Assembly (NCBI GenBank): GCA_017506865.1
Contig: JAFCMP010000103.1
Coordinates: 1 to 64,000 of the forward strand
From: Tribonema minus
Taxonomy: Eukaryota; Sar; Xanthophyceae; Tribonematales; Tribonemataceae
Direction: 5' to 3'
Length of the DNA stretch: 64,000 bases
The translations under genes and the position numbers were made by a program. Shown piece after piece: positions 1 to 64,000 of this stretch (position 1 is its first letter; each line of letters opens with the position of its first letter). The notes under the pieces are model-generated. The model had not been told where the DNA came from, did not search any database, and saw nothing but the letters and a program-made list of their open reading frames with translations.

Positions 1-404
1 GGGTTAGGGGTTGACAACGCATCACCCTAGCTCAGAGGCTCCGGCCCGTGCCGCTAACCTCAACTTAAGCTTCAGCTCAGACGCGCTAGTCCCACGTCAA
101 AAACCTGTAATGCTCGTTGACTTGAGGAGAGGCAAACTCCTTGACAATGGCGGGCATGCTTCACTTGTACACCCTAGCCCTCGATGGCACACGGCCAGGG
201 TGAGGGTGTGACAGCCCATCCTAGCTCACAGACTCCGGAAAACTGCAAGCCTTGCCTCAAAGCTGTGGCGCAGGCTCATGGACTTGAGGCGCCTCTCCTT
301 GGCGACGCAGAAGATGTGACACCCGTAAACCCTAGCCCTAGATCAGACAGGGGGGCCAGAGACTCCACCGAACTTCAACTCAAGAGCAGGCAGGCCCCCC
401 TCAC
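1..404 (-). repeat. donor-side junction echoes of the 405-533 exon
   Basis: Downstream of the exon's GTGAGG donor, the segment encoding the end of the exon recurs at about 250-330 and, more decayed, at about 85-150. Both copies keep the plus-strand string around 'gacttgaggcg...ctccttg'. The first bases (gggttaggggttg) resemble telomere repeat but are only two units long. No other feature is visible here. Confidence 0.55.
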
Positions 405-3400
405 CTCGAAGTTGTGGCGTAGGCTCATGGACTTGAGGCGACTCTCCTTGGCGACGGAGAAGATGGTGTGCCAGTGGCCGTCCGCGCCCGCCGCCTGCAC
501 GTACTGCCGCCCGTGCCGCGAGGCCATCTTCGGCTGCGCGCGCCGCATGCGCGGAGCGTCCACGATGAGGGGAGAGTCCACGATGAGGGTTTAAATTCAC
601 GGCAGCGGTGCGGAATGAAGGTTGCAGTTTGTGGCAGCAGCGCAAGGCAAGATGACTAAATCAGCAGCAGAATCAGTGGCAGCACTCGGCGGAGGCACCC
701 TGCCGCGAGGCCATCTTCGGCTGCTGTGGCAGTGCTCGGCAGAGGCGAGCGCGATGGAGGGGACGCTGCCAGGATGAGCGCTGATGCTCAGCGCGAGGCA
801 CGCGCGGCGGAGCGCATGGCATGGCACTGATCACGAAAAAGAGCGCAGCGCGCGGAGGCGGTCACGAACACGGCGGGCCGCGGAGCGAGCGCGCGGTACC
901 ACTGTACTGAGCGATGCTGCCCGTGCTGCACAGGTAGGTACTGCATGTTGCGCGGCGACCAAGAAGGCGCCAACGGGCCGTCGCTGGCATACCACAGTGG
1001 CCGCCTCTGGCCCCGAATGCGCCAAACGCAGCGACGAGAACGCAATTGAGGTCCGCAAAGCAATCATGGAGCAGCAAGAACGTGGGGTGCGTGGCGAGCG
1101 CGGCGGGGGGCAGAGGCGCGATGGGCGTGGTTGCGCACGGTGCGGAGCCTAGCGCCGAGCGCTGCTGCTGCTGTGAGGAGGCCGATGAGCACTGCCATGG
1201 CTCTTGCAGCGCGCCTCCAAACCCCCTCCTGATTGCGTCGCGTCTGGCGCCGCGGATCGGCGGCGCGCTCTACGGCCGCCCTCAAGGCGGCATGCCGAGG
1301 CACCACGGGCGCCGGCTTTCACTTAAACGCACGGGATGTGACCGCATGTTGTGCCTCCATTTGTGCATTGCCTTTCGCTTATTCAACATTGGCCTTGATG
1401 CCGCCATGCACGAGTTCGTGGGTTGCGTTTCAGCTCCTGATCCGTGTGCGCCAGGCGCACGTTGGCTTGAAGTTCGCTGGCACGGCCTCCCCTACTTCAT
1501 CATCCCTTCGTTCACGCACGATGCATCCATTCATTAACGCATGAATGCAAACACTGCGCTTGCAACTCGGCGCGCCGAAGCTCCGCATTGCCCGGCACTG
1601 GTACATACACTGGCGCCGTGACACATGACATAGTCAAGTATGTACTATTATACAGTGCTCGCCATTGACTTGTTCGCACGTGCAAGCGTACCTCGAAACG
1701 CCAAAGTGCCCAGTCGCCCTGCATAGCAAGTCCTCATCCGCGCATTCACCACTAAGATTGCCTGTTCATCCATTCATGCATGAAATCGCACCTTGACCTT
1801 GAAGCTCGGCATGCCAAAGTGTCCCGCCGCCCTGCACAGCGACTCCCACTCCTCCTTGGGTCCCGCGTTGCCCAGGTTCAGGGGGTCCATCCCTCCGTAC
1901 TGCATGAGTACGTGCGCACATGTGAAGAGCAGCATTGCAGTGTGAGTCCAGAGGTTGTGGACTTGTGTCGCCTATCTTTTGAGGAAAATGAAGAGCAGAC
2001 ATAAAAACAAGGCGCCCCTTTCGGTAGTCGGTAATGTGTGCTTGCATGGCAGTGGACCATACCATCAAATATGGTCAACAGATTCATACCACCAATACGC
2101 ATACATGTGTGCTCGTACACATCCATACGATGCACAAGTCAGTTCTCAGCACCAGAATTCCTGTGCAAAGTCTACTGCTGTATTGACATCATTGTGTGTG
2201 CACAACCAGCGCTGTGTCCACCCATAGACTGGTCACAACATGCAGGCAAACACCGGGGTTCAGTATGAGTGAGGGTAAAGTGTGTGTTGAAGGTTGGCAC
2301 TGGGGCTGGAGACTGCCACCGATTTCGCAAGTCCACTGGCACTGCCACCGCATTGAGCATAATCTGAGCACTTGACTGAAATATCGCCACGGAGGGTCAC
2401 AAAGGCCTAGGGCAAACAGTGAGGGTGAGGATAGGTATCAGGGTTAGGTAGGTAGTGCCGCCAGGCCCTTGTGAGTCACTCAGCATTCAGCGCGTCGCAA
2501 ACACGACGCTCTGAAGTTGAAGTTTGCATAAGGAAGAAGTGCCGCCGAGGCCTGTGAGACGCTCCGCTTCAGCGCTCGGCGGCAGCGGCCAGGCTCCCAC
2601 GAGTCACTCATGGCCATGAGTCACTCGGCAGTCAGCGCTCGGCGGCGGCAGCGGCGCGCGCGCGCTCACCGGGTTCTTGCCCTGGTGCCACGCGTTGCAG
2701 ATGAGGCGCCCCTGCGCGTTGAAGAGCCGGAAGTCGTCGTTTGACATGTGCGCCTTCTTGAAGATGAAGCGCACGATGATGTCCGCGTAGCGCCCGCCGA
2801 ACCTCAGGCCCTGCGGGCAGCGGAGCGTCGCCGCGCGGCGATGATGAGCGTTGCTGAGCGCTGCTGATGCAGTGCTGAAGTGATGCGCTTTGCCGTGTGC
2901 TGGTGCCATCGCGCTCCTCTCGTGTGCTAGTGAATAAGTTGAAGTAGACACAGATGAAGCCGGGATCAAAACCATCTTGAACACGCCGCACTTGCGCTTC
3001 TGCGCTCCCCGCTTTTGCTGTGCAGCGCCTGTCTCACTCTGACCGGCCGCTTGCTGCCTCTTCGGGCCGTTCGCCAGCTGCCTCTTGCACGCCTTGTCGC
3101 AAGGCGTGCTCATCGTGAACACGAACGCAAACTAACATCACCATGTGCGATGGAAACTAAACGCTGGTGGCTTGCGAATGAGTTAAGTCACTCTAAAAGA
3201 CAGCATTGTGGAGGCTACCAGCTGTAATTCATCTGAGCATGCTGGACGAGTGGCAGCCATGCCTACTGTACTCGCTGTGGTCATCCCCTTCTGGGTCATG
3301 CCACAGAAGCGACGCTCTTTCGCAGTGCGTTGATTGGCCGGCGCAAGGCGTGATGATTGAGGTTGACAGTGGGCTTGACGTTGCTGCCTTGTATGCGCAG

Positions 3401-3669
3401 CATCGTCTGAATGGATGTGTGCTACACAGCTTGCACAGACCGCACGTTGTGAGCCTAGATGAAACAGGTTGTAACTGTTGAACTTCAGAGATACATGCAG
3501 CTGGCTGCTTCTGTCGACTGGACGCCAGCAGGCCGTGCAAGCCTGTCAACTACCAGAAGTGGTAGCGAACATGAGTGGCGTCGTCACACACCTCGTCTCT
3601 CTTCTGTGGCACCAGGGTCGGCGCCGGAGGTCCCGCGGCAATCTCGATGATGGCGTTGGGGTCATTGAC
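405..3669 (-). CDS. unidentified conserved multi-exon protein, partial (3' end off left edge)
   Basis: Five phase-0 exons join cleanly on the minus strand: 3592-3669 (begins VNDPNAIIEIAAG, ends VPQKRDE), 2973-3131 (Lys/Gln/Cys-rich, with CDKACKRQ and KRKCGVFKM), 2670-2810 (GLRFGGRYADIIVRFIF, then NDDFRLFNAQGRLICNAWHQ), 1792-1899 (YGGMDPLNLGNAGPKEEW, ends MPSFKVK) and 405-533 (PKMASRHGRQYVQ, then GHWHTIFSV and SLRHNFE). All acceptors are AG. Donors are GTGTGT, GTTTTG (weak, exon 2), GTGAGC, GTGCGA and GTGAGG. The acceptor of the 405-533 exon is supported by an echo at about 690-722 that repeats the CAG plus its first codons. I do not recognise the family; the compact, aromatic-rich blocks look like a folded domain, not low-complexity sequence. 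The N-terminus is unclear: a minus-strand segment ending in MPVHGDLAK before a GTGAGC donor near 4008 could be an upstream exon. The next 3' exon lies outside the window. Confidence 0.6.
1425..1791 (-). repeat. decayed donor-side junction echoes of the 1792-1899 exon
   Basis: Three weakening copies of the FGMPSFKVK-encoding exon end lie near 1685-1725, 1555-1600 and 1450-1490. They are recognised by the recurring plus-strand pattern 'ttgaag/cgaa..cgcc' followed by a short C/G-rich block matching the exon. Similarity is weak in the farthest copy. Confidence 0.4.
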
Positions 3670-6079
3670 CTGCGGCAGCGAAGGGGTAAAAGCACAGGCA
3701 CGGTGGTACATGAACAGTGCTGTATGACTAATAGACTCTCCAGCTGGTCGATGCTTGCGCACTGGCAAACAGCAAACTGGCTCTAAGTGCCAGGTGTGTG
3801 CCTTTTGAGTGTCTGTTGACGATTCACGACATGTGCTCCATGAAACCCACCTCTTTGAAATGGAAGTCAGCATCTACCTCAGCGAATCGGCTGCGGTTGC
3901 TGCTGCCTCAGCCACTGTCGTGCTTCATCAAGCTGCAAGAAGTAATAACCATTTTGGCTGATGCTGTTTCATCAGGCATGTCGACTGCCAGGCCGTGCTC
4001 ACCTTCGCAAGATCTCCGTGGACTGGCATGGATGCGACTGGATTGAGCTTGTGAAGACTCCACACCACCACCTCTGCTGCTTGCGTTTCCGCAATGGCTT
4101 TTCAACTGCTCGGGGGTACTTCAACTGCGAGACTCGCCAATCGCGCATGCAGAGCCTCGAACGTGACAAGAAACAGCCAGAAGCAGTAGCTCGTGGGTGC
4201 TTTATCAGCGTCTGCCGGACGATCCCGACACACAGCAGCCTGTCGCACATTGCGGCGGCGGTCAGAGGTCCTGCATCAGGCGATGCTGCTCATTCTCATC
4301 AGGCAGCAGCGCCCTCAGTACAACTCTGGCGGTAGCCTAGTAGTACGCGCCTGCCGTAGGTACACTTATACACGTCCCTCCCGCCACATCACACATCATG
4401 CAGTCAGAGTGTCTAGACGAGATCTACTCCAGTGCCATCCTATGCATCTTCGATTATACACGTCCCTCTAGCCACATCACACACCATGCAGTCAGAGTGT
4501 CTAGACGAGATCTACTCCAGTGCTGTCCTGTGTAACTTCGACTGTGCCAATGTCTCTCAAATGTGACAGAGAAGCGTCCTACTGCATGCTTGCGCCACCT
4601 AGTAGCGCCGCTAAATTGCGCTGACCCTGCATGTTGAAGACCATGCAATTTGTGTTGCCAGAGGGGGGTTGAAGGTGCCACAGAGCTGTGTGAGGTCATT
4701 GTTCAGGTTAGGTCTAGATTAGGATTTTGGATTAAAATTGGGTGCACCATGGTAAACAGCGCCCCGCCAACGCCGCTTAAACCGTTGCGTGTTGCCACCG
4801 TCATGCCGCATACTGTGTCACTAAATTGAGCATGGTCAGTGTCAAAACTGGTCTTTGCATAAGATGTATGCACAAGGTGTCAGTGCACAACAAGACACGC
4901 CCTTGACCCTAGACCATCACAGGTGGCAAAGCGCGCAGCGCACTGTGCGTGCTGTGCTGTGACGGATTGAAGCGGCAGTAGCCAAGGCATGTTCGTTTGC
5001 CGGAGCTACACCAGCAGTAGCAGCAGTAGCAGCAGCTGAGCCTCACACATCACAATTTCTACTTCAACTGTGGTACAATGTGAAAGCGTCTACTGTACCA
5101 CTCGCCGACACCATTTGCAGCGCAGTAGCACAGACCTGATGAAGCGCTTGGGACGCACCGCAAGCACTGCAGGCAGAGGCGCACAGCGGCGCGCAAAGCG
5201 CCTTTTCCAGGGCAGCGGCAGCAATTGTTACGACAAGCCATTGCGTGCACACAGCAACTCACATACGCTCAGGTGAAGAAGAATGATGTGGCTTGATGGC
5301 ATCAAATATACACGACAGCTGCTGGTTGGGGGCACACACTGCAGCACTCGCCAAACCCCCACACAGCACCAGCGCGGCTCGAAGAGGCATTACACTTCAA
5401 GTATCTCATATATTCAGTTCGTGAACGCATGTGCTGCACGTAGCAGCAGGGAAACGAGCCTGCGATGGTTGGGTGCCCGGCATCGTCAGCGCAGGCGCAC
5501 GAATTTGCGCAACCGTTGTCACCACCACAAAACCCCTTGCAGCGAATGCGCATCCCCTCCACTGCAGGCAGCGTCCACTTCAAGTCTTGACTTGAAGTTT
5601 GCATCCGCACACTGTCCATACTGACTGACAGCCCCCTTGCCAACCCGATCACAGTCGTCATCAGAGGCTACACTGCGCCGCTCGCCAGCAAACCCGCAAT
5701 GATGTTTATGCCCAATAGCAGACTGACTATGCGTAGTACCGCCTACCAGATGGCTGCGGAGGCAGTAAAAGCGGCTCTGATAGCACAGTTGGCAGTTGCA
5801 CAGCGCCGTGTGTCTGACCGTCAGCGCCTTCAATGCCATGAGGCCAGCGATGACCACTACATCATCACAGGCTCGTACTTCTGTGACAGCCCTGTCGCCC
5901 CGCTCGCAGTCACCAGAGGCTCTGCTGCGCCGCTCGCCGGCAACCCCGCGACAACTATCCCCACTACATCATCACCCGCGCAGTCGCCATCTCCACTGCG
6001 CCGCGCGCAGGCGGCCCCGTGACGAGCACCAACTTCAAGCCATAAGTTCAACTTTGTCGCGTTTGAGTGTTGACGGCGG
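3670..6079. other. intergenic region with terminal-exon echoes and an 88-bp duplication
   Basis: No gene could be supported apart from a possible upstream exon of the left gene near 4008-4100. The part next to NOSIP (about 5640-6050) contains degraded copies of the NOSIP last coding exon. The motif 'tacatcatcacaggctcgta' at about 5860 and the 'gccgctcgcc' blocks at about 5670 and 5930 match the stop-codon end of that exon at 6080-6150. Echoes therefore extend past a stop codon as well as past splice sites. Confidence 0.55.
4367..4542. repeat. 88-bp tandem duplication
   Basis: Two near-identical units start at about 4367 and 4455 ('tatacacgtccctc...'). Each contains an ATG opening the short peptide MQSECLDEIYSSA on the plus strand; the second copy then reads about a dozen more residues to a stop. 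The few differences between units point to a recent duplication. Whether the short frame is translated is unknown. Confidence 0.7.
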
Positions 6080-9000
6080 CTACATCATGACGGGCTCGTA
6101 CTTCTGCGCCTCCACCTCGCCGCTCGCCGCGAAGCCGGACGCGGAGCGTGCGAGCTCTATCACGTCCGCCGTCTTAAACTTGCCGCCCGTCACAGGGCAC
6201 ATCATGGTGGGCAGCGCAAACTCCTCCGCAGCGCTCTTGAGCATGACCTGAGGGGGGCAGCGCTCAGCGGAGGGTAGGACTAGGGTTAGGCGATGCGCGT
6301 GTAGGGTTTGACCTGAGGGCAGCGCTCTGCAGGGGTTATTCAGCAGGGAGGGGGGGTAGGGTTAGGGTTAGGTGACGCGCATGTAGGGTTTGACCTGAGG
6401 GCAGTGCGCAGCAGGGGGTAGGGCTAGGGTTGAGCAAAGGGAGTAGGGCTAGGGTCGGGCGACGCGCGTGTAGGGTTTTGGGTGGCGTGGCATTTCACGC
6501 GTCGTGTGTGAGCGAAGCACGTGAACGAGTGTGATTGGAGCACAGACGGCACCGGTGGCTCATGGTGTATGAGAGGCAGAATAGCATCTGTTCATGTTAT
6601 TTTGTGCGGGTTTTGTGTCTGACGACAACTGATCGGACCAGAGCGCGCAGGCAGAACTGTCAGCTGGTAGTGTCCACATTCATGACATCATGAAGAAAAT
6701 TACGTGATCTCATTTGCCCCGAGTGCGCAAGCAGCAATCGCTGGCTGGTGGTGTATCACTGGTACAGTATCACCCACTCACAGGAATTCATGCCTGACTC
6801 GAGTGCATCACTGATGCAGCGACACGGTACCATACACTCGCGTGAATTTGTGCATGGACTCGCATCAATCACGGATGAATCACAGTGAACCCACCAGACT
6901 GGAACATGCAAGCAGCACCGTCGGCTGGTGGTGTATCCATATCCATGCTGTAGGGCCTCTGCCACTCATGTGAAATCATGCTGTGAGCAATGAATCATGT
7001 GACCTCGACTGTCCGCAGCACATGAATGCATGTGCGAAACTCACGCATGCACATGAATCCATGCCGTGAAGCCCACGAAGCAAAGCCACCTGGCCGGCGA
7101 GCGCAAGCAGCACGCTCCGGCTAGTGCCGCATCAACGACAAAGCAACCCTTGCGCGCATGAATTCACGCCGTCAATCACGCGTGAACTCGCCTGGCCGGA
7201 GCGCAGAGGGCAACATTTACCTACGCACATGAATTCATGCCACGAATCATGCGCGAACGCACCTGCCCGGAGCGCGCGAGCAGCACCGTCGGCTGGTGGT
7301 GTATCTCGCTCCGCGTGACGGCGCAGATCATGCACCCCTGCCCCAATTTGAGGGACAGGGCAACATTCACAATCATGAATTCATGCCGTGAATCACGCGT
7401 GAACGAACGCACCTGGCCGGAGCGCGCCAGCAGCACCGTCGGCTGGTGGTGAATCTCGCGCCGCGTGACGGCGCAGATGATGCGCCCCTTCCCCGCGCCC
7501 CCCGAGTCCGCGCCCGCCTCCTCCTTGCCGCCGTCCACCGTGAAGCGCACGGGGATGAGGTTCTTGGCGCGCAGCGGGTCGCCGCTCATCGGGCTGCGTT
7601 CACACAGTCAGCAGTGCACTCGTGTCAGCCGGGCCCGCCAGCTTCGTTTGTGCCGGCGAAGGCACGTCTGGCACGGTTTGAAATGCATCAGATGCATCCG
7701 TTACGGTCGAGAGTATGCAACTTCGGCGGCGGCGGTTACAGCGGTTTATTCTGCGTCAGAGTGCGCGCGCAGCGGGTCGCCGCTCATCGGGATGCGTTTG
7801 CAATAACGGCAAGAGAATAATTGCCAATCAGTGGCTCATCACACAAGTGCTTAGCGCGCCCTCTGTTCTCCTCCCCTCGCGATGTTTGGCCCCTGCTAAC
7901 TGGCACGGTTTCAGTTGCGCCAGTTACATCAGGAAGTCTCGGACAAGAGTATGCAGCTTCAGCTTCAGTTGCGTCGGTTCATTCTGAGTCAGAGTACGCG
8001 CGCAGCGGGTCGCCGCTCATCGGGTTGCGTTCACACGGCCTGCAATGCGTCGCACGCAGCCTTTGCCGCCGCCATTTGTGCCGGCGAGCAGTTGCATCAG
8101 TTCCGTCAGGGGACTCTCGCTCGACAGTATGCAACGGCAGTAGTGTCAGGTTGGTTACGGCTGTGTATTCAGGATCAGCGTAGGCGCGCAGCGGGTCGCC
8201 GCTCATCGGGCTGCGTTCGCAACGCCGGCAAGGGCACAATAGGCACCATTTCAGTTGCGTCAGTTACAACAGTCAGCTTCAGGTAAGTCAGTGAAAAACG
8301 GTTTGTTCCGAGTCAGAGTACACGCGCATCGGATCGCCGATCATCGGGCTGCAGTTCACGCGGCGAGCAATGCATTGAATGTCAGCCTCCGGCCGTGGCA
8401 GCTTCGTGCCGGCGAGCAGTTCCGTCAGTTCCGTCAGTTACGTCGGGAGACTCTTGTCAGTTGGTAAGTAACTTCAGTAACGTTGGTTTCGTTACAACTG
8501 TGTTCAGAGTCGGCGTATGCTCTCGGCAGATCGCCGCTCATCGGGCTGCCGTTTACGCGGCCAGTGATGCCGGCAAGGGCACGATTGGCACGATTCCAAC
8601 TGCGTCACGTACATCAGGAAGTCTCAGGCAAGAGTATACAGCTTCCGTTGCGTCGGCTACAACAGTGATTCCGAGTCAGAATACCCGCGCAGCAAATCGC
8701 CGCTCATTGGGCTGCGGTTCACACCGCCAGCAATGCGCTTCATGTCAGCCTCCGGCCCCGCCAGCTTTTTTTGTGCCGGCGAGGGCACAGTTCGCGCCAT
8801 TTCAATTGCGTGCGGCCAGCAATGCACTCTGTCAGCCCCTGTCCAGTACAGCCACTCGTTCAGTGTCGCGTCAAGAAGGGCTGAGGCCGGCAAGAACGAC
8901 AACCAGTCGTCCAACTGCCAGCGTGCAGGCCGCAAATGCTCCTGTGTGCCAAGCCAAAATTCGAGTATCATTGAAGCACTTCTATTCACCGATCGCAGCA

Positions 9001-12000
9001 TGAACTCAAAAGGCACCGAGTGTGCATGCTCCTCAGCGTGTTTTCACACACGCTGCCGTCTCACTTTCCACACCAGCAACAGACGCTCGTGACAATTAGA
9101 AGTTGGCAACACAGGTGACGCGCCTGCACGCGGCTACGCCTCCAGCCCGCTGCCCCCTCTTCGACATGCTACGACACCCACGTCGCAAGCCCAGTCCTAG
9201 GCCGCATCAGACCCCGCAATCGAGGTCAAAATGACTTGTAGCATTGAAGCTGCCAGCGCACAGCGGTGACGCACCTGCACTGCCATGCTATCCTCTCCTC
9301 AACAAGCCCCGGTGCGCAGGCTACGGTACTCAAGCGTGTATCGTTCCAGACCAGCACAAACAGATGCATACAGCGTTGAAGTTTGCAACACAAGCCGATG
9401 ACGCACTTGCGCGGCCGCGCCTTCGGGGGCGCGACCCTCTCCTCGATGTGCTCAGGCACACGGACTCAAAACCCGTTGCATCACTGTCTACACACCAGCA
9501 GAAATGGACGGCAAAGGTTCAATGTGAGGGAGTTGAAATTGACAACACGTGGAGGTGACGCACCTGCGCGGCCGCGCCTCCGGCGGCGCGATCCGCTCCT
9601 CGACTTGCCCCGGCACGCATGTCGCCGTCCCAAGGCTACACAACACGCGCCAGCCTCCGCACCTAGCAAAATACATACAAACACAGAGTTGACGTTGGCA
9701 GCACACGGCGCTATGACGCACCTGCGCGGCCGCGCCTCCGGCGGCGCGACCCTCTCCTCGACGTGCTCCGGCGCGTGCGTCGGCAGCCAGAAGCTCGTGC
9801 GCTTCAGTATCTCCTTGTGCTGCTCGCGCGTCGTCATGTCCACAGGCAGCGCCATCTTGGCCATGACGCGCTTCTTCTCCGACTCCAGCCGCCGCTCCGC
9901 GTCCTCAGGGTGCGCGCGCTTGCCGAGCGCTGCTGCCGGTGCCGCGGAGTCCTGCAATGGAAGGGATGGGCGCATACGAATTGGTCGGCGGGCGGGCTGA
10001 CTGAAGGTTTAGGTGCATGTGCAGTTCTGATCCCCTAATCCCAATCCTAACCCTAACCCTATCGACCATCATGCGCTTTCTTTTCGGACTCCAGCCGCCT
10101 CTCCGCGTCCTCAGGGCGCGCGCGCTTGCCGAGCGCTGCTGCCGGCGCCGCAAACTCCTGGAGACCGCGCATGGATCAGTAGCCGGAAGGGCGCGCCGCA
10201 TGTGAGAGAGAGGACGGGGGGGGCGGTTGACTCGCGCGACGAGTTCGCGGCCGCTGCTGCCGCCCACTGGGCGCTGTTTGGCAGTCGTCAGGTGATGGCA
10301 GCTCATCGTCCCAGGCGTACACACGAGCGTCAAAAGAGTGCAACATACACACGCATCGCGTGGGCTCCTCTGCCTCCAGCACGGCCACGGTCACCAGGCA
10401 GTTTTGCCGATCGTGACTGCGCACGTACATACAGCCCGCCTCAGGTGCCGCGGCCAGGGGCGCGCCCGCCACTTTCGCAAGCGCACTGAGATGCGCAGAC
10501 GGCCCCTGCCCCTGCTCCGGCCGCTGAAGCTGCGAGAGGCGGTGTACTTGTGGTCAAATTGTTGGTCCTCTTCAACCCCTCCATTTTGTTGCAGTCTCAA
10601 ACTATGTACATGGCGATTTGCGATGAAGCATCCAACTAACCAAATATTTACGCCAGCAACAACGCAAGCCAGCACATAGCCAGCAGGCGACTCACGTCGG
10701 ACGCGACGGCCACGAGCGCGCCGCCCGTCTCCGCCACCACCAGCGCAGTTGAACTTGAAGTTGACGCAGACGCTGCTGCCGCAGGCGGCGGCAGCGGCCC
10801 CACCGCCCCCTGCGTCTTGACAAACTTGTCGACTGAGCGCTGCTGCTTCTCCGCATCCGCCGCCACTGCGCGCTCCGCCTGCGCCTGCTGCTGCGCCTCA
10901 TATGCCGCCCTGTCCGTACAGATTGCAGCGCGCAATGTGCATGGCAGGTGGTGAGCAGCGCTGAACGGGCGCTCTTGACGTGAGGCGGTGAGGTGATGAT
11001 GACAACAGTTCATGTCAGCAGCAGCAACACGCTCATGTTGTGTTTTCATCGATTGCATCGTCGCCGCCAGACGAGGTGGCCCCACCGCATATGCCACAGT
11101 GCCGGTGGGACAATTACTGCGAGCGCACAGCCTACCGTACAGCGCGCCGTGCGCAGCATGGCGTTCTGCTGCGCGCTTGCATCGACTTGCAGGTACCGGC
11201 ATCTGTATACAGCCGCTGAGCTGCTAAAGAAGCATCCACAGCTATTGTACGCTCTGCCGCTGCCTTCTGCTGCACCCTGCATGAGGTTCACGTGTTGTGA
11301 TGTGGCGAAAGCGGGCACCGTGCATCCTTCGAGCTGAGTTGCGCGGCAGCAATGCCATGACCAGCATGTCGCCAATAGTTTGCGCTCTTTGCGACAGGCG
11401 ACAACTCAGCAGCCGCGACATGCTTCACATGCAGTCACTAAAAGGCATGAAGGGGCGAGCCTCCGCAGGGCCAGGCACCACCAGATGCAGCTGCTCCCTT
11501 TTCACTATCAAGTTTGTTGCAATCATCACGGAGGAGCGTGTGTGCATGTACAAGCAGCCAACTTGCATCCGCACGAAGGTTGACTGCAGCAGCTGCTGCT
11601 CTTGCGGGTTGCTCACCTTTGTCGCTTGAGGTCCTTGGTCTTGACTAACAAATACTCCAGTATGCACTCCCGGCAGTAGATGTGGCCGCTGGGCGTTGCC
11701 ATGGGCTCCTTGGCTGTAGAAAAGGAAATGCATCAAGGAGTCAACTGTGGATCCAAAGCGAATGAGCGTTGGCAGGACAAAAAGTGTAAAAATAATTCCG
11801 GGCAGGAGCAACAGTGCGGACCGAGCAAGACTCTACGTGGCATGGGTTTTACACAGCAGCTGGTGGTGCAGGGTCACGACAAGTCTGCCCGGTGCAGACA
11901 GACGATACCCTGGGTTGCTACTGTGCGGGTGAGGTTCACTTTTGGCTTGCAGCAAGAGCCGTGTTGAATCACGACACCGCCACCAACACACAACACAGGT

Positions 12001-12196
12001 GGGTCACATTCAGGTCATCGATGAGAATGCTTTCGTTGCCCTTCTCACCTAGCCGGAGGCACATGGCGCAGTTGCCAAATGGCAGCTGCGAATCCACCCC
12101 AACCCGCACCTTCTGTGTGCCATACCCGCACCCCTCCCTCTCCCTGTAGGTAAAGTGATGCCTGTCGCCTGCATTCTTGCTATGTCGGGAGGGCAT
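6080..12196 (-). CDS. NOSIP: NOSIP-like U-box/RING-family protein, complete, six exons
   Basis: Minus-strand exons: 12049-12196, 11617-11713, 10696-10909, 9722-9951, 7413-7593 and 6080-6247. The phases agree at every join and give 345 residues; the family is usually about 300. The N-terminus (MPSRHSKNAGDRHHFTYRER, then GYGTQKVR) matches the NOSIP start. A divergent U-box follows with CAMC, ATPSGHIYCRECILEYLL and a basic helix. A Gln/Ala-rich coiled stretch (AYEAQQQAQAERAV) occupies exon 3. Exon 4 has SFWLPTHAPE, and exons 5-6 carry the second half-domain: SPMSGDPLR, IICAVTRREI, MMCPVTGGKF and the typical end EAQKYEPVMM. In the second motif the usual CPMSG cysteine is serine. Family knowledge: nuclear E3-ligase-like proteins, associated with the spliceosome in many eukaryotes. 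It is divergently paired with the transporter gene. Exon assignment is firm. Confidence 0.93.
6248..6480 (-). repeat. acceptor-side echoes upstream of NOSIP last exon
   Basis: The plus-strand unit 'gcgtgtagggtttgacctgagggcagcgct' recurs about three times, in pieces. 'gacctgag' is the reverse of the CTCAG acceptor joined to the exon's first bases GTC. Runs of 'gtagggttaggg' inside the units give a telomere-like look. The copies keep the AG. Confidence 0.6.
6640..7412 (-). repeat. donor-side echoes of NOSIP exon 5
   Basis: The exon-5 end (plus strand 'ccggagcgcgccagcagcac' followed by 'cgtcggctggtggtg') recurs at about 7265-7305, 7100-7130, 6905-6935 and 6720-6750, and more faintly at about 6635. 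Between copies lies a repeated 'atgaattcatgccgtgaatca' spacer. Similarity falls with distance from the exon, as expected if older copies are pushed outward. Confidence 0.7.
7594..8730 (-). repeat. acceptor-side echoes of NOSIP exon 5 (six copies)
   Basis: The exon-5 start (plus strand 'gcgggtcgccgctcatcggg' plus the acceptor) is copied at about 7770, 8005, 8195, 8330, 8525 and 8690. The two copies nearest the real exon have lost the acceptor AG on the minus strand (CAT and CAA in place of CAG). The four more distant copies keep CAG. Interspersed pieces with 'gccggcgagg', 'cagttgcgtcagttac' and 'caagagtatgcagcttc' are shared between units, so the unit is about 170-230 bp. Confidence 0.8.
9105..9721 (-). 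repeat. donor-side echoes of NOSIP exon 4 (four copies)
   Basis: The plus-strand block 'gacgcacctgcgcggccgcg' followed by 'cctccggcggcgcga' marks the end of exon 4. It recurs at about 9555-9620, 9400-9450, 9265-9330 and 9115-9175, each time still fused to the GTGCGTC donor or a relic of it. Divergence rises with distance. Confidence 0.8.
10065..10175 (-). repeat. acceptor-side echo of NOSIP exon 4
   Basis: About 95 bases encoding the start of exon 4 (plus strand 'ctccagccgcctctccgcgt' to 'gccggcgccgcaaactcctg') duplicate 9880-9955. It is flanked at 10036-10062 by 'cctaaccctaaccctat', a telomere-like tract at the duplication boundary. Confidence 0.75.
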
Positions 12197-12586: not shown

Positions 12587-15500
12587 ATGCAGCAGCAGGA
12601 TTACAAGCGTGTAGCATCCGCCCCCAAACAGGACTCGTCCCATGCCAGCAGAGCCGTTAGGAGTCTCTCTGAGGGCGAGGAGGAGATCGAGGTGGAGCTC
12701 CCCACCATCAGAAGCGGCGACGCCCGCAACAAGTCACAGAGGGACAAGTCTCACCCGCGAAGCCCGGGAGAGTACCCCGCTCCCCACGCAACCCTGCTCG
12801 ACAACCCACCGCCCCCTGGCGGCAAGGAGCACAAGCAGCAGCACCAGCAGCACCCCGGCGCTGTCATGGGCCGGGGAAAGCAGTACCTGAGACTTGACCA
12901 CAGCGACTCCCGCCACGAACAGTTTCTGGACCAGGAGGCGCAGGCGATCGCGGAGGCAGAGGAGGAGCTGCAGTTCGAGCTGGAGGCAGGAGACCAAATA
13001 GGGGAGCACTTTGGGGGCACGGATGGGGTGCCTGGGGGGGCGCCGGGGGCGATACCCTGCGCGTTTATATCGGGGCGCCCGCTGGTCTACCTCTGCGCTG
13101 CGTGCTCGAGCCTGTGCTCCGTGCTGCTGGGCTACGACGTGGGGGTCATGTCGGGGGCCAAGGTGAGAGCGAAACCGTGCCGCAGCGCCGCTCAGTTCAC
13201 GGGGTGTGCTGCGCATCATAAATGTACTGTGCAGTGCACGTCATGAAGCGCGCCGGGCATGTTCCGCTTCCATGCCGCCCTCGTGGTGTTGTGGTGGGAG
13301 ATGCGGTTTTGAATATGGATGGCGAAAGCGGTGTGCTTGTTGTCCGTTGCTTGGCTCAGGCAAGAGCAGCAGCGATGCCAGGAGAGCGCCCTGAACTATC
13401 GACAGGCCACAGGACGGTCTGGAATGGACATGGCATTGCTGATGTGCTTCAGCTGGTATTGGGCCGATAGGTGTATTCCGGCCCAGCGGTTGCCACATGC
13501 CGTGTGAGCCATGACTGGCCGCTGGTGCAACACTGATCATGTAGGGAAAGGCACCAGCTTTGGGTTGCCAATTTCAATCTCATCCCTCACTGCTGCCGGC
13601 CTTCGCTGAAACTGACACACGCAACCCCTCTTATGCCTCACACAGCTGCCTCAATCAGTGGCTTGATCACCAACGTGGCCGTTGAATTTGTGGGTTGAGC
13701 CAAGATACGTCTTCAAGCGTATTGTCAGAGAAGCTCAAATCAAAGGCTTTGACTGCGTGCGGCAGTGACACATCACAGCGATATGAGCGTGGCTTTTACG
13801 CTACCATCTACGCCATCCACTCTGTTAAGCTCTCTATGAAGTAGCGAGGACCAGCACAGACGCCTGGTTCTTTGCGTTGCGCTACGTGGTCGCGCTGATG
13901 CTGACACACTGTGATGTCTCTTGCGCAGCTCCCACGTCGTGATGTTGTGACATGGCCTCAGCCTGCTCGCTTTCTGATTAAAGCTTCTGAAACAGCGCCT
14001 GAAACCGTTTGCGCTGCACCCCAGGAGCACATCCAGACTAACTTCAAGTGCGAGTCTCGCAGACCGCAATCATCATCGGCCGCCATGACCTTGTAACCGC
14101 TTTTTGAAACTGCTTCAGACCCATGAACCACTATTGAACCCCCGGGAATGCATACAGCCCAAAGTGACGCTGTGCAACGTAGACGGCGGCAATCATCGGC
14201 AGCCTCACTTCTACCCCCCCCCCCCCCCCCATCTGCTTTCAGAACCACTGCTGAAAACTGCTGCTGAAACCGCTCCGTGAACCCGTCCAGGAGTACATCC
14301 AGCCCGATCTGGAGCTGTCCGATTCGCAGACGGCGGTCATTGTCGGCAGCCTGAATCTCGTGGCAGCGCTCGGCGCGCTGATGGCGGGCAAGGCGGCGGA
14401 CGCGCTGGGGCGGCGCGTGACCATCGCGCTCGCGTGCACCGTCTTCATCGTCGGCGCCGCGATGATGGCGGGCAGCGGCAGCTTCGGAGCGCTGCTGACG
14501 GGGCGCGTGGTCACGGGGGTGGGGGTGGGTGCTGCTATGATGGTGAGTGGGTTGAGCTATGTAGGTCGTGAGTGAGCTGTGTATGGTAGGTGGGTATAGA
14601 GGCTGCAATCAGCTTCGGAGCGCTGCTGTCGGGGCGCGTGGTGACGGGGGTGGGGGTGGGCGCCGCCATGATGGTGCGCGTGTTGAGCGCTGTGTGTAGG
14701 CTGTATGGTAGGTAGGTATGGTGCCCGCGTGCAGCTTTGGAGCGCTGCTGACGGGGCGCGTGGTTGTGTGTGTGGGGGGGGGGGGGCGCTGCCATGATGG
14801 TGCGCGCGTTAAAGTACAGAAGTAGGTGTTTGCTATAAGCTGTGTATGGTAGACATGTAGGTACAGTGGCTTTGGAGCGCTGCTGATGTGGCAAGCGGTG
14901 GTGGAGGAGCGGAGGGGCGGGGAGGGGAGGGCGCAGCCATGATGGTGAACGGGGCTGCGAATGGTGGACATCAGCGGTCTGGCTGGTATGCATGTATGAT
15001 ATCCATAACGTAGGTAGGTAAAGCAGCAAAGGGTAGGTAGGTATGGTGGGCACAAGGACTGAAACGCTGCTGACGGGGCGGTGTGGTGAAGGGGGTGGCG
15101 GTGGACGCCGCCATCATGAGAGTGGGTCACTGTGGTCCACGACAGCCATGGCAGGTTGGTATGTATCTGTGTCAGTTTTCCATGGTAGGCAAGTGTGTCA
15201 GTTTTCGATGGTAGGCAAGTATAGTTGCCGCCAGCAGCACCGGAGCGCTGCTGCTGACGTGATGGGGGTGGGGCAGGGCGGCAACGCCATGATGGTGACT
15301 GGGTTCATATATGATGTTTGATAGCTTTTGCGGGCGTGGCGGGCTGCAGCAGCGGAAGCGCCTCGACACGTAGAGACGCCGCTTGCCTCTGCTCGCCTGA
15401 CATGCCAAATCTGAATGGCGCGACAGGTGACGCCCATCTACATTGCGCTGCGCAGAACCGGCGCTGCCGCCACGCGGACTTGCTGTGTGACTTTGACGGC

Positions 15501-25400: not shown

Positions 25401-26224
25401 TTGTCACCGCTGCCATGTTTCGCGGCTGCGTTTCAAGGGGGATTGGCCCCCAATACTCTCAGATAATGCACAAGCGTTGCTGGGGGTCCAAACCCTGGCC
25501 ATCCACTGCTTTACGCGCAAACGTAGGGCACAGCCGCCAGCAGTGGCAGCACAAGCACGTTACTTTACATGTTACCGACGCCTGCGTGCGCCGCAGCTGC
25601 GCTCTGAGGAGAGAGGGACCCTCAACCAATCGACAGTGCTTTGAGTTTTGAAGGGGGGGAAGGGGGGGGGGGGGTCCAAACTCCGTGGCCGTGGGGCGCA
25701 GCACCAACACATCAGCGGTGACACACAGGCGCTGCGCCCCCTGCCGTATCAGCAGTCACGGTGCGGAGCGCCGCTGCGAGCACCGCCCGCCGTCGCAGCA
25801 GAATTGCCGAGTGATGTCACCACAAACCGAAGCAGCCCCCGCAGACGCGCCCGGGAGCCCTTGCTCTCAGGCCCGACTTTGCGACGCGCGCACAAACGGC
25901 CGCGGGCATCAACTCATGCTGAGCGCTGCTGCCGCAGCTTTTGCCGGGGGGTCTTCGCCACAGGCCGTCCCTCGACACGTGTCTTGGCGCCATTCCGCGC
26001 CCTGTCATACCCCCGCCCATAACACAGCAACGCAGTTCGGCACGGTACGCGCCAGACACCACTCGACACCGCGGCAGCAGCGGCGCCGCGTGCCAGACGG
26101 CCACCGGCGCCGCGGCGGCAGCAGCGCCGCTACCGCCGCTGCTGATGCTCAACGCAGTTCGGCGCGGTGCACGCAAGACTGCCACTGCCGCAGCGGCGGC
26201 AGCAGCGCCGGGCAGCGCCGCGCG
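22484..26224. other. intergenic region between convergent genes; simple and tandem repeats
   Basis: No gene is supported. The stretch 22600-23270 is GCN/CAG-rich and contains an approximately 130-bp tandem repeat ('gcagtgggcaatgtggcacc' at about 22846 and 22978, each followed by 'tggtgaagtggcggcc'). Long G or C runs occur at about 23856, 24798, 24980 and 25665. Open frames here are low-complexity or begin at non-ATG codons. Both flanking 3' UTRs must lie inside. Confidence 0.6.
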
Positions 26225-30275: not shown

Positions 30276-30336
<61 letters not shown>

Positions 30337-56120: not shown

Positions 56121-56816
56121 GTACAGCGCCAACACGTCAAATGCAGCCATCCACACAATGCTCTCACAGCGAGGGCAACATGGCCGACATAAAGCGCTCC
56201 ATCAGACTGTGCTTGAATTCATGTCCATGCTTGAATTCATCCTCCGTGCTCGAATTCATGTTGGCAATATAGTGCTCAAGCCCAGGCAGACCTCCAGAGC
56301 AGCCCGAAGGCTGCACCCCCTACCCTCCCCCTCCCCGATCCACTCCAGTAAGCCCGATGCCTAGTCTACTAGTCACTTGACGCCAGTCTCTGCCCTCAGC
56401 CTGTTGGCGGCCCAATGACTGCAGTGGTAGTGCCAGGGCATGCAGACCACTGGTGGACGACACCGCGAGGACCCAGCTGCGCAGCCCCGCAAAGGCAGGT
56501 ACGTGACGGCAGTTACCGGCAGTTGAGAGCACTGCCGCCCCCGCCTCCCATCCCTCCCACTGTCACATGAGGGGGGCGCCGCCAAAATCGTCGACGCCAA
56601 TGCACGCAAGCGCGGGAGCCGCACGCACTGGCGCTACACTAGTATAACCGCAAGACCTGTACTCAAGAGAAACAACACGCCAACCCCCCCCCACGCACGA
56701 CCCCCCCTGCGCGCCGCACGTCACGGTCATACGGCTGCATGTGTGCAAATGCAATCGCCTTCCCCCTCCGCATGCGCGCGCGCTCGCCGCCGCGCGCAAT
56801 CCCCTCTACCGGCCCG
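56121..56816. other. intergenic, nothing recognised
   Basis: No coding exon, RNA gene or clear repeat is visible beyond three 'gaattcat' pieces near 56215-56262 and short C runs at about 56690-56705. Confidence 0.5.
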
Positions 56817-57120
56817 CGATCTGAAGAGGCCGCGGGTTCGAATCCTGCGTGCGTCGCCTCTTTTTCCCTCCGCAGCATCCGCGTCCGCCTCGGCGAGCGC
56901 GACGACGGCCTTGCGGACCAACCCCTTGTTGGCCGTTACGAGGCCGCGGGATTAAATCCCGTGCGCGTCATTCACCCCCTTTTTTACCGCACGTTGACCC
57001 TCGCGCTGAAGCCGCGGTTTCGAACCCCGCGTGCGTCATGCACCCCCATCTTTTCCGGAACTAAGTACATAGGTTGAGCCGCGTGCCGACGCCGCGGGTT
57101 CGAATCCCGCCCGCGCCCCT
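56817..57120. repeat. four modules pairing a tRNA T-arm-like motif with the CacyBP-like gene end
   Basis: A sequence close to GCGGGTTCGAATCCCGC (a perfect T-stem/loop and Pol III B-box) occurs at about 56831, 56942, 57012 and 57091. After each comes 'gcgtca/cgcc...ctctttttccctccgca', and in the first module also 'gcgtccgcctcggcgagcgc', which copies the last codons of the gene at 57121-57175. They are echoes of the terminal coding edge plus flank. No 5' tRNA half (D-arm, anticodon arm or matching acceptor strand) is present, so these are not full tRNA genes. Confidence 0.65.
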
Positions 57121-60100
57121 CTATTGTTTCCGCAAGTCGTGCCACGCGCCCGCGTCCGCCTTCGTGAGCGTCACCACGACCTTGCCGGGGCGGCGCCGCG
57201 CCGCCGCGCCCGTGATGTCGCCGCTCAGCTCGAGGTGCAGGCGCTGCCAGGCGCCCGCGCCGCCGCCGCCGCCGCTGCCACCGCTGCCGCTGCTGCTGCC
57301 GCCGCCGCCGCTGCTGCTGCCGCCGCTGCGCACGTCGACCGTCAGCGACGTGCGCGTCCACTGCAGCGCGACGGCGTCCTCCGCGAGGGGGGTGGGGGGC
57401 AGGGGCTCGCCACCAGGTTCGGCGGGGGCGTCGGCACTGTTTGTCACGGGTATGTATATCTTTACCTGGGGGGGGGGGCAGGGGAAAGGGGGGGGGCAGG
57501 GGAGGGGCGGTGCCGTGAGCCAGGCAGATTGCATGGGAGGGGCACTGTGAGCGGCCGCATAGCACACTATAGCGGCAGCGGTACTTATGTAGTGCTATGT
57601 TGCAAAGTATATCTGAAAGGAAGGGCAGTGGGTGCGGGTTCAACCTCGCAAGCAGTACTTCATGTACAGTGTGAAGTATGCAGCTAAGGTGTGCTCTCCG
57701 ACGCGGAGGCGCACAGGGTTAGGGTTAGGGTTAGGGTTAGGGTTAGGGTTAGGACGCGTGCGACGCTCGATCTGCATGCGGAGATGCATCCGCTGCGTGA
57801 GCAGCTGCTGAAGTGAGTCGCTGCTTGCAGCGGCGGCAACGGAGCATTGCACATGAAATGGAGTGCTGCGCAACGTCATGTGCGCTCCGCAGCTATGAAC
57901 GTTGACTTTCTACTAGGGCAACAGCTGACGCTAAATACGCTGCTGCGTAAGTCATCTGGGCCCCGATTTGAACATAGATGCATACATACGCACAGTGGTA
58001 CAAAGCAGTACATGACAGTAGTACAGCGCAGTACACTCAAGTCCAGTTACCACCTCCGTCATCTGCCTGGTTTTGAAATTTGCCAATGCAGTGCATGGCC
58101 AATCGGCGCCGCAGGACCTGTGCAGCAAACACGCGCCTGAGGCTCCCTCACCTGCCCAGGAGTACAAGGCAGTACATAACGGTATTGCAGCACAATACAG
58201 AACAGTCCACTCACCTCCGTCTGCCTGGTTTCCACTGTATGGATACAGAGCATGACCAATGAACTGTGCTGCCATGATGCACCTCAAGCTCATCATCTGC
58301 CCAAGCGCAGCCCGCTCTTGGCGAAAGATCACGTCAACATGTACCATAGCTATGAATGTAGTCACCAGTTGATGCCTCCAAAAAACAAGTACATCGAACT
58401 ATCTTACTACACCACAAAGTCTTCAACAATAACAACCAGAACAAACTCTCTCAACAGTTTTATTACACGATACACACCTTGTGCGATACACACCTTGTGC
58501 TCTTCATCTGCCCAAGCGTAGCCCGTTGTTGTCCCAAACGTACGAGACAAACCCGCAGATCAAACCCTCTCAATGGTTCTTCTTCGAAGTATCACACGAT
58601 ACACACCTTATGTTCCTCATCTGCCCAAGCGTAGCCCGTTATTGCCCCATACGCTTTGGTCCGCTCCGGGCTCACACTGCCCTGCTCCGACACCGTCCTG
58701 TGCAGCAGCCGCGGCTCCTCCTTACCGTCCCACTGACAGGTCAGCAGTTACAGCAGTTACAGGCAGTCACAGCAGTTGCAGGCGGGTACAGATTGTGAGT
58801 CGTAAGGGGGAGCAGCAGCAGCGCATGCGGCCGCAGTCAGCAAGGGGGCGACAGCAAAAGGGTAATGGCACACACAAGGACACTAATGAGAAATGTATGA
58901 CTTTTCAGGCCGTAGTCGGACAGTACAAGTACTCGTACAAGATTCTCTGACGCCGTTCTCCGTACAGGACGAGTACTCGTATGGAACAAGTACTGGTACG
59001 CAAACGCCAAACCAACACTCGCGCCACACTCGTACTCGTCTACTCGGCGCGTACCAACTGTGCAGTGCGTCAGCTTGCCTTTGTGGCCGGCAGTCCTCAG
59101 GGCAAGAACAGCGCCCTGACCCTGCATCGCCCTAGGCGCGATCGGTTGAACTTCATGGCCCGGCGCTTCTCAACGGAAAAGAGCAAAGGAGTAGCCGTGA
59201 CCCTGCACCTGTCTAGCCCTAACGCTGTTCCAGGGCGTACAGGCCGATTCAGCCCCGGCCCAAGCAGCATGCCCCCCCCCCCCCGCACGCAGACACGTTC
59301 CGGATGAACTTTGCAGCTGCCATAGAAACACCATGTCCTACTTAAAATGGCAGTCGTGCAAGCGCCTGCAACTGCGGGAACCTCAGCTGCTGGACGCCCA
59401 ATTGTCAGCCTCAGAGCTAATCCCAACCTCACGGGCGTGGGGGGGTGGCGCCTGCTGCACCCTGCGCCATCCAGGTGGTGTAGAATTCAGCATGATGATA
59501 TCAAAAGAGATAGTGAAAAAGTGGCAGCGCTCAGCAGCGGCAGCAGCGCTCACCTGGTGGTCGTCGATGACCCTGCGGCGCCGCGCGCGCGTTTCCAGTC
59601 CGTTGCGTCGCGTGCGCCGCCGCGACGCACGCATGTGAGGCGAGAGGGCGGCGGCAGCGAAGGGCACTCGGTGAGCGCGGCGGGACAGCCAAACGACGTG
59701 TGCGCGCGACGATGCGTTGTTGTCGTTGAGCATTGAGCGCAGCAGCCTCGGCGCGAGTGCTGGCGGCTGCGCGCGACGGCGCTGCAGTGCGCAGCCATGC
59801 ATGTGCACACGCCGCCGCGGTGTGTGTGATTTGACTGGGAAGTGACAAGGGTCAGGGTGAGGAGGGCGCGCCAACTTTCGAGGGATGTCAGCATTAGAGG
59901 CGATTCCACATTTGTGCTTCACAGCTACTGCGATGTCAAGAGAGGTTTGGCAGATTTGCAGCATTATCACGAGGCTTGCCAAATGTAGACACAACACGAC
60001 TTCCAACGTGACGCCAACAGCAAGTCCCATCTTCAAGTCAACGCTGCTTGATGATGCAAGCTCTTCGTGGCGCAGCAATCCACAGCTGAGTTTTTTTCCC

Positions 60101-62746: not shown

Positions 62747-62777
<31 letters not shown>

Positions 62778-64000
62778 CCCAGCGGCGGCACGTGCAGGCA
62801 GAGTCGCGCGCAGGGGGGGTAGGCAGCCGCCGCCGCGCGCGGTGCCTGGGGGAGCGTGGACGCGCAGTGGAAACCGGCGCCGCATATTACGAAACGCTGT
62901 TTTCAGGGGGGGGCGCCCCATTGCTCAGGAGGGCGGGAGCGGTGCGCCACCGTACAGTTGCGGCAGTGGTGGGGGTTGCAGGTGCTGCTGGCCGGGATTC
63001 GATACATCCATGGCACCTGGGCGCATTCAGGGCATGCGTGGGCATCTGGCGCATTCAGGGCACGCTACATACGGTTGGGTGCAGTGGCAGCGGAGGCGCT
63101 TTTTGGTGCATACAGCGTGGTGTGTGCACTAACAGAGCCTAGCAATATGAGGCAGCTGATGCTGAGTGGCCTGCCTGGCAATCAAGACAGTCTGATGTTG
63201 AAGACGAAGTTGAACTTTACTACTTGGGACCAACTAGACAAGTGAGAATCGATTTTCATGTACTATACTCACTCGACAAGTGACGTTGGTGTTCAGGACG
63301 TCTGTCAAGCTCGAGGAATGGATAGGAATGGATAGCATGTTCGAGCCAGTTGTAGGCATGGCATGCTGCGTGTGACGTCTGGCATGCTGTCATCATGCGC
63401 GCCATGCTTCATCCACATGTACGATTGACAACACCATCCCCAAGGCGCGCAGGCTTGCGGTTCATAGCTCTCTACTGGCATTTGCAATTTCTGCGACTGA
63501 TCTCCTATGTAGCAAAGTCACCCAGACTGCATCAACAGCGCGCAATCTGCAACCTGCCTCGCAGCTGCTCATTGCATGCATGTAGCTGCCGTAGCGTGCC
63601 GGGCTTCTGTCGCAGCCAGCTGCTGATGGCTGCTGCTGAGACGCATGCCACGCATGCGAACAGAACTTTGGCCGCTGCGACTGGATGGCAACGCGCCGAG
63701 CACTGCTTTCCCTTTGCGCACCACGACAACGCGCAACAGCAGCAACCACAGTGACAGCCACGGCATTGCCTGCCCAGCAGTTTGCTCACCTGGCAGAGCG
63801 CTTCCCACTGCGGCTGCTGCAGCCATACCAGCCACTGCAGCCGGCGCCGCCACGGCAGTTCCGGCAGCGCTGAGTGCCGCTGCCGGCGCCGCTACCGCTG
63901 CTGCTGGCGCCCCTACCGCCCCTGCTGGCGCTGCTACCGCCCCTGCTGGTGCCGCTACCGCTGCTGCTGGCGCCGCTCCCGCCGCACCTGCCGCAACCGC
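61413..64000 (-). CDS. Ala/Pro-rich low-complexity protein with polyQ, partial (5' end off right edge)
   Basis: The last exon is 61413-62896 and the preceding one is 63790 to beyond 64000. The upstream exon ends with one base before GTGAGC, and the downstream exon begins with two bases after CTGAAAACAG, so the phases fit. The visible part is about 560 residues, almost entirely Ala, Pro, Arg and Gln. It has a Q10 run at about residue 50 of the last exon, (AAPAAAV)-type repeats in the upstream exon, and a recurring short motif LRLQLPS (ALRLQLPSAAA; RALRLQLPSGAG) with variants KLKLVLPPS and LHVRLPPQ. KRPRVQRD may act as a nuclear signal. I do not recognise the protein. The long uniform open frame and matching splice phases favour a real gene, but composition alone can keep frames open in such DNA. 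Confidence 0.6.
63880..64000 (-). repeat. coding 24-30-bp repeats in the Ala-rich gene
   Basis: Plus-strand 'gctgctggcgcccctaccgc' type units repeat to the window edge, encoding AAPAGAV/AAPAAAV on the minus strand. Confidence 0.8.

Follow-up and report, generated by a model that had tools for sequence, protein, structure and literature searches.

What are the introns of this locus made of, and how did they become so long? The origin of intron length is an open question, to which transposons are the usual answer. The stretch analysed here (Tribonema minus, assembly GCA_017506865.1, contig JAFCMP010000103.1, positions 1 to 64,000 of the forward strand; hereafter the window, 64,000 nucleotides in all) is intron-rich nuclear-type eukaryotic DNA with 59% GC overall and 47-63% per 4-kb block. 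Three of its genes, a sugar transporter (MFS) gene, a NOSIP homologue and a PH-START-EDR2_C (EDR2-like) gene, have validated reading frames, and most of their introns contain serial tandem copies of the adjoining exon edge and its splice site, which we call echoes.

Exon edges are copied serially into their own introns

The three frame-validated genes comprise 31 exons and 28 introns, with all splice junctions in phase, and the open frames running through the 28 introns support the 56 exon edges used in our tests.

12587..22483, + strand: sugar transporter (MFS) gene, 9 exons, 8 introns, 638 amino acids
MFS exons, + strand: 12587-13162, 14291-14542, 16056-16181, 17255-17442, 18854-19022, 19362-19442, 20313-20543, 21472-21637, 22356-22483
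6080..12196, - strand: NOSIP homologue, 6 exons, 5 introns, 345 amino acids
NOSIP exons, - strand: 12196-12049, 11713-11617, 10909-10696, 9951-9722, 7593-7413, 6247-6080
26225..43166, - strand: EDR2-like gene, 16 exons, 15 introns, a single open reading frame (ORF) of 1072 amino acids
EDR2 exons 1-8, - strand: 43166-42828, 41607-41384, 40516-40222, 38523-38461, 37570-37484, 36537-36403, 35914-35586, 34307-34061
EDR2 exons 9-16, - strand: 33295-33179, 32720-32536, 32023-31929, 31166-30991, 29776-29513, 28295-27940, 27518-27407, 26419-26225

The transporter was identified by its match to Pfam Sugar_tr, by GlcP/XylE matches and by its phase-consistent ORF; the NOSIP homologue by zf-NOSIP (E=8.7e-10) and likewise a phase-consistent ORF, its end being taken in the tests as 6081, one base short of the end of the stop codon (6080). 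In the third gene EDR2_C and START were matched, together with a PH match under its curated cut-off.

Each exon edge was compared with its own intron using a probe of up to 45 exon and 35 intron nucleotides, requiring a local score of at least 18 and at least 8 aligned exon nucleotides; matches with fewer aligned exon bases, or lying within 20 bp of the real site, were left out of the counts. Copies were found for 30 of the 56 edges, 93 in all, distributed over 22 of the 28 introns, with both donor and acceptor arrays in eight. The same probes matched non-adjacent introns in only 11 of 1512 probe/intron pairs, and the reversed own intron in 2 of 56 cases. An exon-only 40-mer exceeded its 1% null at 13/28 donor and 12/28 acceptor edges (1/28 and 2/28 when reversed). 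Self-comparison of the 28 introns by BLAST returned 123 direct matches and a single inverted one, and recovered chains anchored at an exon edge in 23 introns. Of the 26,782 intron bases, 15,549 (58%) lie in such anchored chains and 543 (2%) in unanchored ones, and array coverage is complete in MFS introns 2, 3 and 4 and in EDR2 intron 13. The first copy lies 65-357 bp from its edge, and at 28 of the 30 echoed edges this distance is 110-210 bp. No echo was detected by the probe in six introns (MFS 5 and 8; NOSIP 1 and 2; EDR2 2 and 6). Arrays of exon-edge echoes are thus a real and strong feature of these genes. The initial annotation, made by inspection of the sequence, had spoken of at least 25 arrays occupying most introns, with units commonly of 100-200 bp, all of which is borne out by the counts above; the lack of an excess in adjacent over non-adjacent introns, which it had named as a refutation, is not what we find.

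Its further statement that six or seven genes are affected holds for the three validated genes and, provisionally, for three more: a PT-repeat gene, a gene that we take to be CS-like (its protein has no Pfam match) and a leftmost gene that runs off the left end of the window. Echo matches were found at 7 of 18 tested edges in these provisional genes, where several boundaries were entered 1-3 bases off; among the seven, the PT exon 2 donor and PT exon 3 acceptor match each other, and the acceptor of the leftmost gene sits on an uncertain boundary.

Echoes are not confined to splice sites. Three of five stop-codon edges (NOSIP, EDR2 and CS-like) are followed by outward copies of the coding end, whereas the edge probe found no coding-end echo at the stop codons of the transporter and the PT-repeat gene. 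Because stop-codon edges are echoed without a splice site, it is probably not the splice site that gives rise to the echoes; what the echoed edges have in common is a boundary of conserved coding sequence. The arrays and echoes are as follows.

13969..14290, +: MFS exon 2 acceptor echoes, 2 copies
14543..15313, +: MFS exon 2 donor array, 5 copies
15350..16055, +: MFS exon 3 acceptor array, 4 copies, including near-identical 144-bp repeats of 15587-16079
16182..16668, +: MFS exon 3 donor array, 3 copies, about 122 bp
16700..17254, +: MFS exon 4 acceptor array, 3 copies
17443..17831, +: MFS exon 4 donor array, 3 matches
17900..18853, +: MFS exon 5 acceptor array, 5 copies
19443..20080, +: MFS exon 6 donor array, 5 copies, 112 bp
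20544..21221, +: MFS exon 7 donor array, 5 copies, first step 183 bp, later steps 104-115 bp; the repeated part is the final 51 exon bases plus the donor
21255..21471, +: MFS exon 8 acceptor echoes, 2 copies, weak
9952..10160, -: NOSIP exon 4 acceptor echo, 1 copy
9057..9721, -: NOSIP exon 4 donor array, 4 copies
7594..8809, -: NOSIP exon 5 acceptor array, 6 copies
6600..7412, -: NOSIP exon 5 donor array, 6 copies
6248..6430, -: NOSIP exon 6 acceptor echoes, 2 copies, weak, few exon bases
5800..6079, -: NOSIP coding-end echo in the 3' flank, stop codon included (d223, 83% over 47 coding nucleotides)
41608..41823, -: EDR2 exon 2 acceptor echo, 1 copy
38524..39485, -: EDR2 exon 4 acceptor array, 6 copies
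37571..38098, -: EDR2 exon 5 acceptor array, 4 copies
37200..37483, -: EDR2 exon 5 donor echo, 1 copy detected, GC donor kept
36538..36700, -: EDR2 exon 6 acceptor echo, 1 copy
34753..35585, -: EDR2 exon 7 donor array, 3 copies
33296..33696, -: EDR2 exon 9 acceptor echo, 1 copy by probe, a second by eye
32721..32930, -: EDR2 exon 10 acceptor echo, 1 copy
32187..32535, -: EDR2 exon 10 donor echoes, 2 copies
31167..31458, -: EDR2 exon 12 acceptor echoes, 2 copies
30331..30990, -: EDR2 exon 12 donor array, 3 copies by probe, more by eye
28840..29512, -: EDR2 exon 13 donor array, 4 copies
28296..28822, -: EDR2 exon 14 acceptor array, 3 copies
27663..27939, -: EDR2 exon 14 donor echoes, 2 copies
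26420..27089, -: EDR2 exon 16 acceptor array, 3 copies
26028..26224, -: EDR2 coding-end echo, stop codon region included (d132, score 42.0, reverse control 22.5); a second match at d51 (score 25.5) is near the reverse control
48390..49209, +: provisional PT-repeat gene, exon 2 acceptor echoes, 2 by probe, more by eye
58154..58606, -: provisional CS-like gene, exon donor echoes, 2 by probe
56826..57120, -: provisional CS-like gene, coding-end echo (d263, 76% over 50 nucleotides)
1550..1791, -: provisional leftmost gene, donor echoes, weak (81% and 62%)
112..404, -: provisional gene off the left end, donor echo

The GC donor in this list is that of EDR2 intron 5 (GTCAAG|GCGAGT, 37482-37483, - strand), and its echo copy retains GC.

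Intron length and the order of the copies

The number of copies in an intron rises with intron length (Spearman rho 0.77, p=2e-6), at about 104 bp per copy, and echo-bearing introns average 1060 bp against 576 bp for echo-free ones (p=0.002); the latter span 335-867 bp in the three genes, and decayed arrays may be hidden in them. These results support the initial annotation in its claim that introns grow longer as splice junctions are copied repeatedly. Its observation that similarity falls with distance also stands: the identity of the exon part, which goes down to about 64%, drops with distance from the real edge at a mean rho of -0.46 (of 18 arrays, 13 negative, 2 positive and 3 zero), and in 17 of 24 arrays the nearest copy is more exon-like than the others (p=0.016), which indicates that the nearest copies tend to be the youngest. 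Copies also have derived changes in common, 113 where an assumed chance factor of 0.45 predicts 35, an excess amounting to about 15% of the differences. This excess suggests that some arrays may also have grown internally, most visibly the 112-bp array after MFS exon 6.

Relation to published mirage arrays

The anatomy described above is not new, although the initial annotation had held it to be undescribed. In PMC3087553, amphioxus "mirage" minisatellites in the globins BflGb6 and BflGb9 and in Adh3 are presented as tandem duplications over intron/exon boundaries, the BflGb6 units measuring 150-160 bp, with copies 81-100% identical and splicing apparently undisturbed; Troponin C (TnC) and PGBD5 are named as further amphioxus cases in PMC3902484. 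To judge from these texts, both systems have boundary-spanning tandem units on the donor or acceptor side and many AG/GT signals; the array-internal turnover of the amphioxus mirages may have its counterpart in the excess of shared changes in the window. The differences, on the same footing, are of extent and host: the window has arrays in 22/28 introns and 58% of intron bases, in several genes in a row, echoes at stop-codon edges too, and exon-part identities far into decay, and its host, to go by the 59% GC and the PH-START-EDR2_C gene, is probably non-animal, an alga or protist, whereas the mirages in these texts are from cephalochordates. The arrays are thus of the mirage kind already described, and what is new is their density, far above that of the published cases consulted, and the probably non-animal host. 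Serial boundary arrays outside amphioxus were absent from the open-access literature matches listed, and the part of PMC2206037 available contains no mention of mirages.

Other systems resemble the arrays less closely, as far as the available parts of the sources go. In the potato RdRp gene a tandem duplication likewise brings duplicated splice signals into a gene, but there one tandem duplicate of an intron-exon structure made a new intron and exon in a single step (PMC4974935), whereas in the window existing introns were lengthened serially. Introners also make intron sequence grow in bulk (PMC9860276), but there a single element has spread its copies over many genes, whereas the copies in the window are local (11/1512 in non-adjacent introns, by edge probes only). 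The direct repeats that PMC11782384 places at intron/exon borders near splice sites are 4-30 bp long and are read as insertion scars, unlike the long serial exon-edge arrays seen here.

A probable origin: tandem duplication, neutral decay and an intact-exon filter

We consider it probable that these mirage-type arrays arose by tandem duplication across coding-exon edges, followed by splicing at the original sites and neutral decay, under a filter that retains an intact exon. A segment of about 105-210 bp straddling a coding-exon edge would be duplicated in tandem, by slippage, microhomology or unequal exchange as we infer, and a second exon edge with its splice site would thereby be placed deeper in the intron. 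Splicing would presumably keep to the original, outer site, i.e. the first donor or the last acceptor, since exon definition should prefer the pair bounding the shortest exon. With splicing unmoved the insert would be harmless: the extra edge, splice site and intron piece would become intron, could be fixed by drift and would decay without constraint. With each further event the older copies would move farther from the exon and the intron would grow, selection demanding only that one intact exon be left. Duplications wholly within exons would be expected to change the protein and be lost, the repeat-tolerant PT-repeat exon being an exception.

The state of the copies is broadly that expected of unconstrained sequence. 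Over 13 donor and 15 acceptor arrays, the splice dinucleotide of the echo matches the real site at 0.85 (donor) and 0.90 (acceptor), and many copies retain AG/GT signals by this per-base measure. The neighbouring copied exon sequence matches at 0.87 and 0.84, respectively, and the neighbouring intron sequence at 0.74 and 0.73, as would follow from a constrained exon with unconstrained copies, in which case drift acts along a single branch for exon and splice site but along two for the intron. If used, 86 of the 93 echoes would add an in-frame stop, only seven staying open up to the echo, and echo offsets modulo 3 (23/28/42) show no preference for multiples of three. From sequence comparison, then, the copies look like neutral debris without a function of their own, although the fit to neutrality is not perfect.

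To ask what a filter alone can produce, we simulated location-blind tandem duplication required to leave the mRNA intact, with no indels and no later insertions. Introns starting at 100-200 bp ended with means of 69-98% anchored and 0-8% unanchored sequence, reproducing the observed contrast; the observed anchored coverage of 58% is lower, a weak discrepancy given that the simulations had neither indels nor later insertions. Starting lengths of 400-576 bp gave a mean of 20-56% unanchored array sequence, against 3% observed, and a 300-bp start fell in between (7-31%).

Several observations weigh against this account in its simplest form. First, the ratio of intron to exon divergence from the master is 1.40 over the whole probe, where simple neutrality predicts 2; copies resemble one another slightly more in their exon part than in their intron part (0.806 vs 0.783, per-array p=0.02), for which weak constraint, alignment trimming or copies made independently from the exon may be responsible; and the donor dinucleotide does not match significantly better than its intron neighbours (interval of the difference -0.02 to 0.23). 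Second, start-codon edges are echoed in 0 of 3 cases. Third, the copied exon part has a median of 59 nucleotides, against 79-104 under blind placement, and arrays with more than 70% exon number 0/27, against 21-27% simulated (p 0.005-0.06 by model); these exon/unit ratios are rough, as the nearest copy is not always the edge-crossing match, though the simulations were measured alike. Lastly, intergenic DNA is poor in duplications: tandem arrays cover 0-9% of it, and 127 of 1583 strict intergenic 40-mers have a local direct copy (49/1583 reversed), against 37-53% of intron 40-mers in the three genes, depending on distance class from the exon (2-4% reversed). Introns of the provisional genes are intermediate (136/821; reversed 10/821). 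Because intergenic duplications are few, a filter acting on location-blind duplication leaves part of the pattern unexplained. The neutral alternative offered in the initial annotation, that tandem duplication is rampant everywhere and survives only where an intact exon remains, thus keeps its second half, since the copies look neutral and the intact-exon filter fits even the stop-codon edges, and loses its first. Gene-body DNA would appear to be more duplication-prone than intergenic DNA, and duplication probably favours gene bodies or coding edges to some degree.

Alternative explanations

How far that preference goes separates duplication under a filter from the alternative that survives best, namely that duplication is directed to exon edges, which would be hotspots by virtue of a nucleosome boundary, an R-loop, splicing-coupled damage or homology to a frozen template. 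We regard this as a tentative and rather unlikely explanation. It would account for the excess of anchored over unanchored sequence, for the poverty of intergenic DNA in arrays and for units that contain less exon than blind placement predicts, and it gains if ancestral introns were of about 400-576 bp, where blind placement yields too much unanchored sequence. The distance gradient points both ways: blind simulations give -0.16 to -0.29 and edge-only ones -0.59 to -0.65, with the observed -0.46 in between. However, blind placement on ancestral introns of 100-200 bp also yields mostly anchored arrays, stop-codon edges are echoed although they lack a splice site, and neither interleaving nor spacing separates the models. 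Donor and acceptor arrays interleave in 0 of 8 introns, an argument against blind duplication that we dropped, as the blind model rarely interleaves from introns of at least 150 bp (with matched detection, 17/51 at 100 bp, then 2/34, 0/40 and 0/35 from 150 bp up). A fixed-period in-register ("reg") model gave a standard deviation of log spacing of 0.00-0.04 against 0.29 observed, a weak comparison because that simulation had no indels. The related proposal that conserved coding edges are the source of new intron DNA, the undrifting exon serving as a permanent homologous template at which duplications keep starting, and most intron length in the lineage being decayed edge copies and not transposons, seems to us doubtful to the same degree.

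That the echoed splice sites are kept as functional decoys, regulating or buffering splicing, is very unlikely. GT or AG is still present in most echoes, but the copied exon sequence is retained equally well, in-frame stops would follow from nearly all of them, and the stop-codon echoes have no splice site to keep.

We find still less room for the Rogers model, in which an intron is born when an exon segment with AGGT is duplicated in tandem and the introns themselves would be exon copies. Exon-derived sequence does occur in the introns, yet the intron start resembles the downstream exon start in 0/28 cases and the intron end the upstream exon end in 0/28 (99% null), in a test of 80-bp intron ends from which old births may have decayed past recognition. 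An assembly artefact is the least credible of all. Misassembly could have altered how many units the near-identical 112-bp and 144-bp arrays contain, but it makes identical copies, whereas most of the copies here have diverged from the exon as well as from one another, carry private changes and stand at varied spacings.

Other features of the window

PT-repeat gene exon 3 (49855-49881, + strand) has 27 nucleotides, is in phase and encodes PTTRKPTQK; it looks like the last part of exon 2 (PTRKPTQK) together with the donor of that exon, 519 bp upstream, and by this resemblance is a candidate for an echo turned exon. A coding minisatellite with 12/24/48-bp units (PTAN/PTAK repeats), a disordered PT repeat, occupies 50425-51072 (+) of the same gene.

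Directly after the CS-like gene, at 56820-57120 (-), we noted by eye four to five copies of a tRNA T-arm/B-box-like motif, GGATTCGAACCC, possibly a tRNA-derived element; ARAGORN finds no tRNA there, and the tRNA (ARAGORN) and Rfam searches of the whole window gave 0 matches each. Pfam matched nothing in 1-10 kb of the minus strand read as three whole frames, though most of NOSIP lies there, nor in 54.2-64 kb of the minus strand, nor in the proteins of the CS-like gene, the leftmost gene, the last PT-gene exon and a 355-amino-acid ORF. This last, a single ORF at 54935-56002 (+), resembles on visual inspection the C-terminal region of a retroelement and had no relatives in viral contigs; on either side of it, at 54303-54354 and 56074-56126, stands one copy of a 53-bp direct repeat (90.6%).

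The octamer TTGAAGTT/AACTTCAA has 30 dispersed occurrences (e.g. at 31631, 32505, 35105 and 28641) where 1.3 are expected, and GGTAGGTA has 18, also dispersed, where 0.7 are expected. Interstitial TTAGGG/CCCTAA runs lie at 57715-57753, 40632-40680, 15651-15970 and 50282-50295, one set being inside the 144-bp acceptor array of MFS exon 3. GC content falls to 47% in 44001-48000, against 57-63% in the remaining 4-kb blocks, possibly an insertion.

Implications for intron growth

In three genes of the window, tandem copies of the adjoining exon edge account for over half of the intron sequence. The arrays carry a built-in clock, in that a frozen exon can be compared with its copies, together with a spatial order. 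If the same holds genome-wide, intron growth would become measurable event by event, and the choice of the spliceosome among near-identical sites would become testable. The amphioxus globin authors (PMC3087553) suggested that new exons may arise from mirage copies; under the same genome-wide condition, copies could be observed turning into exons, for which PT exon 3 is the candidate here.

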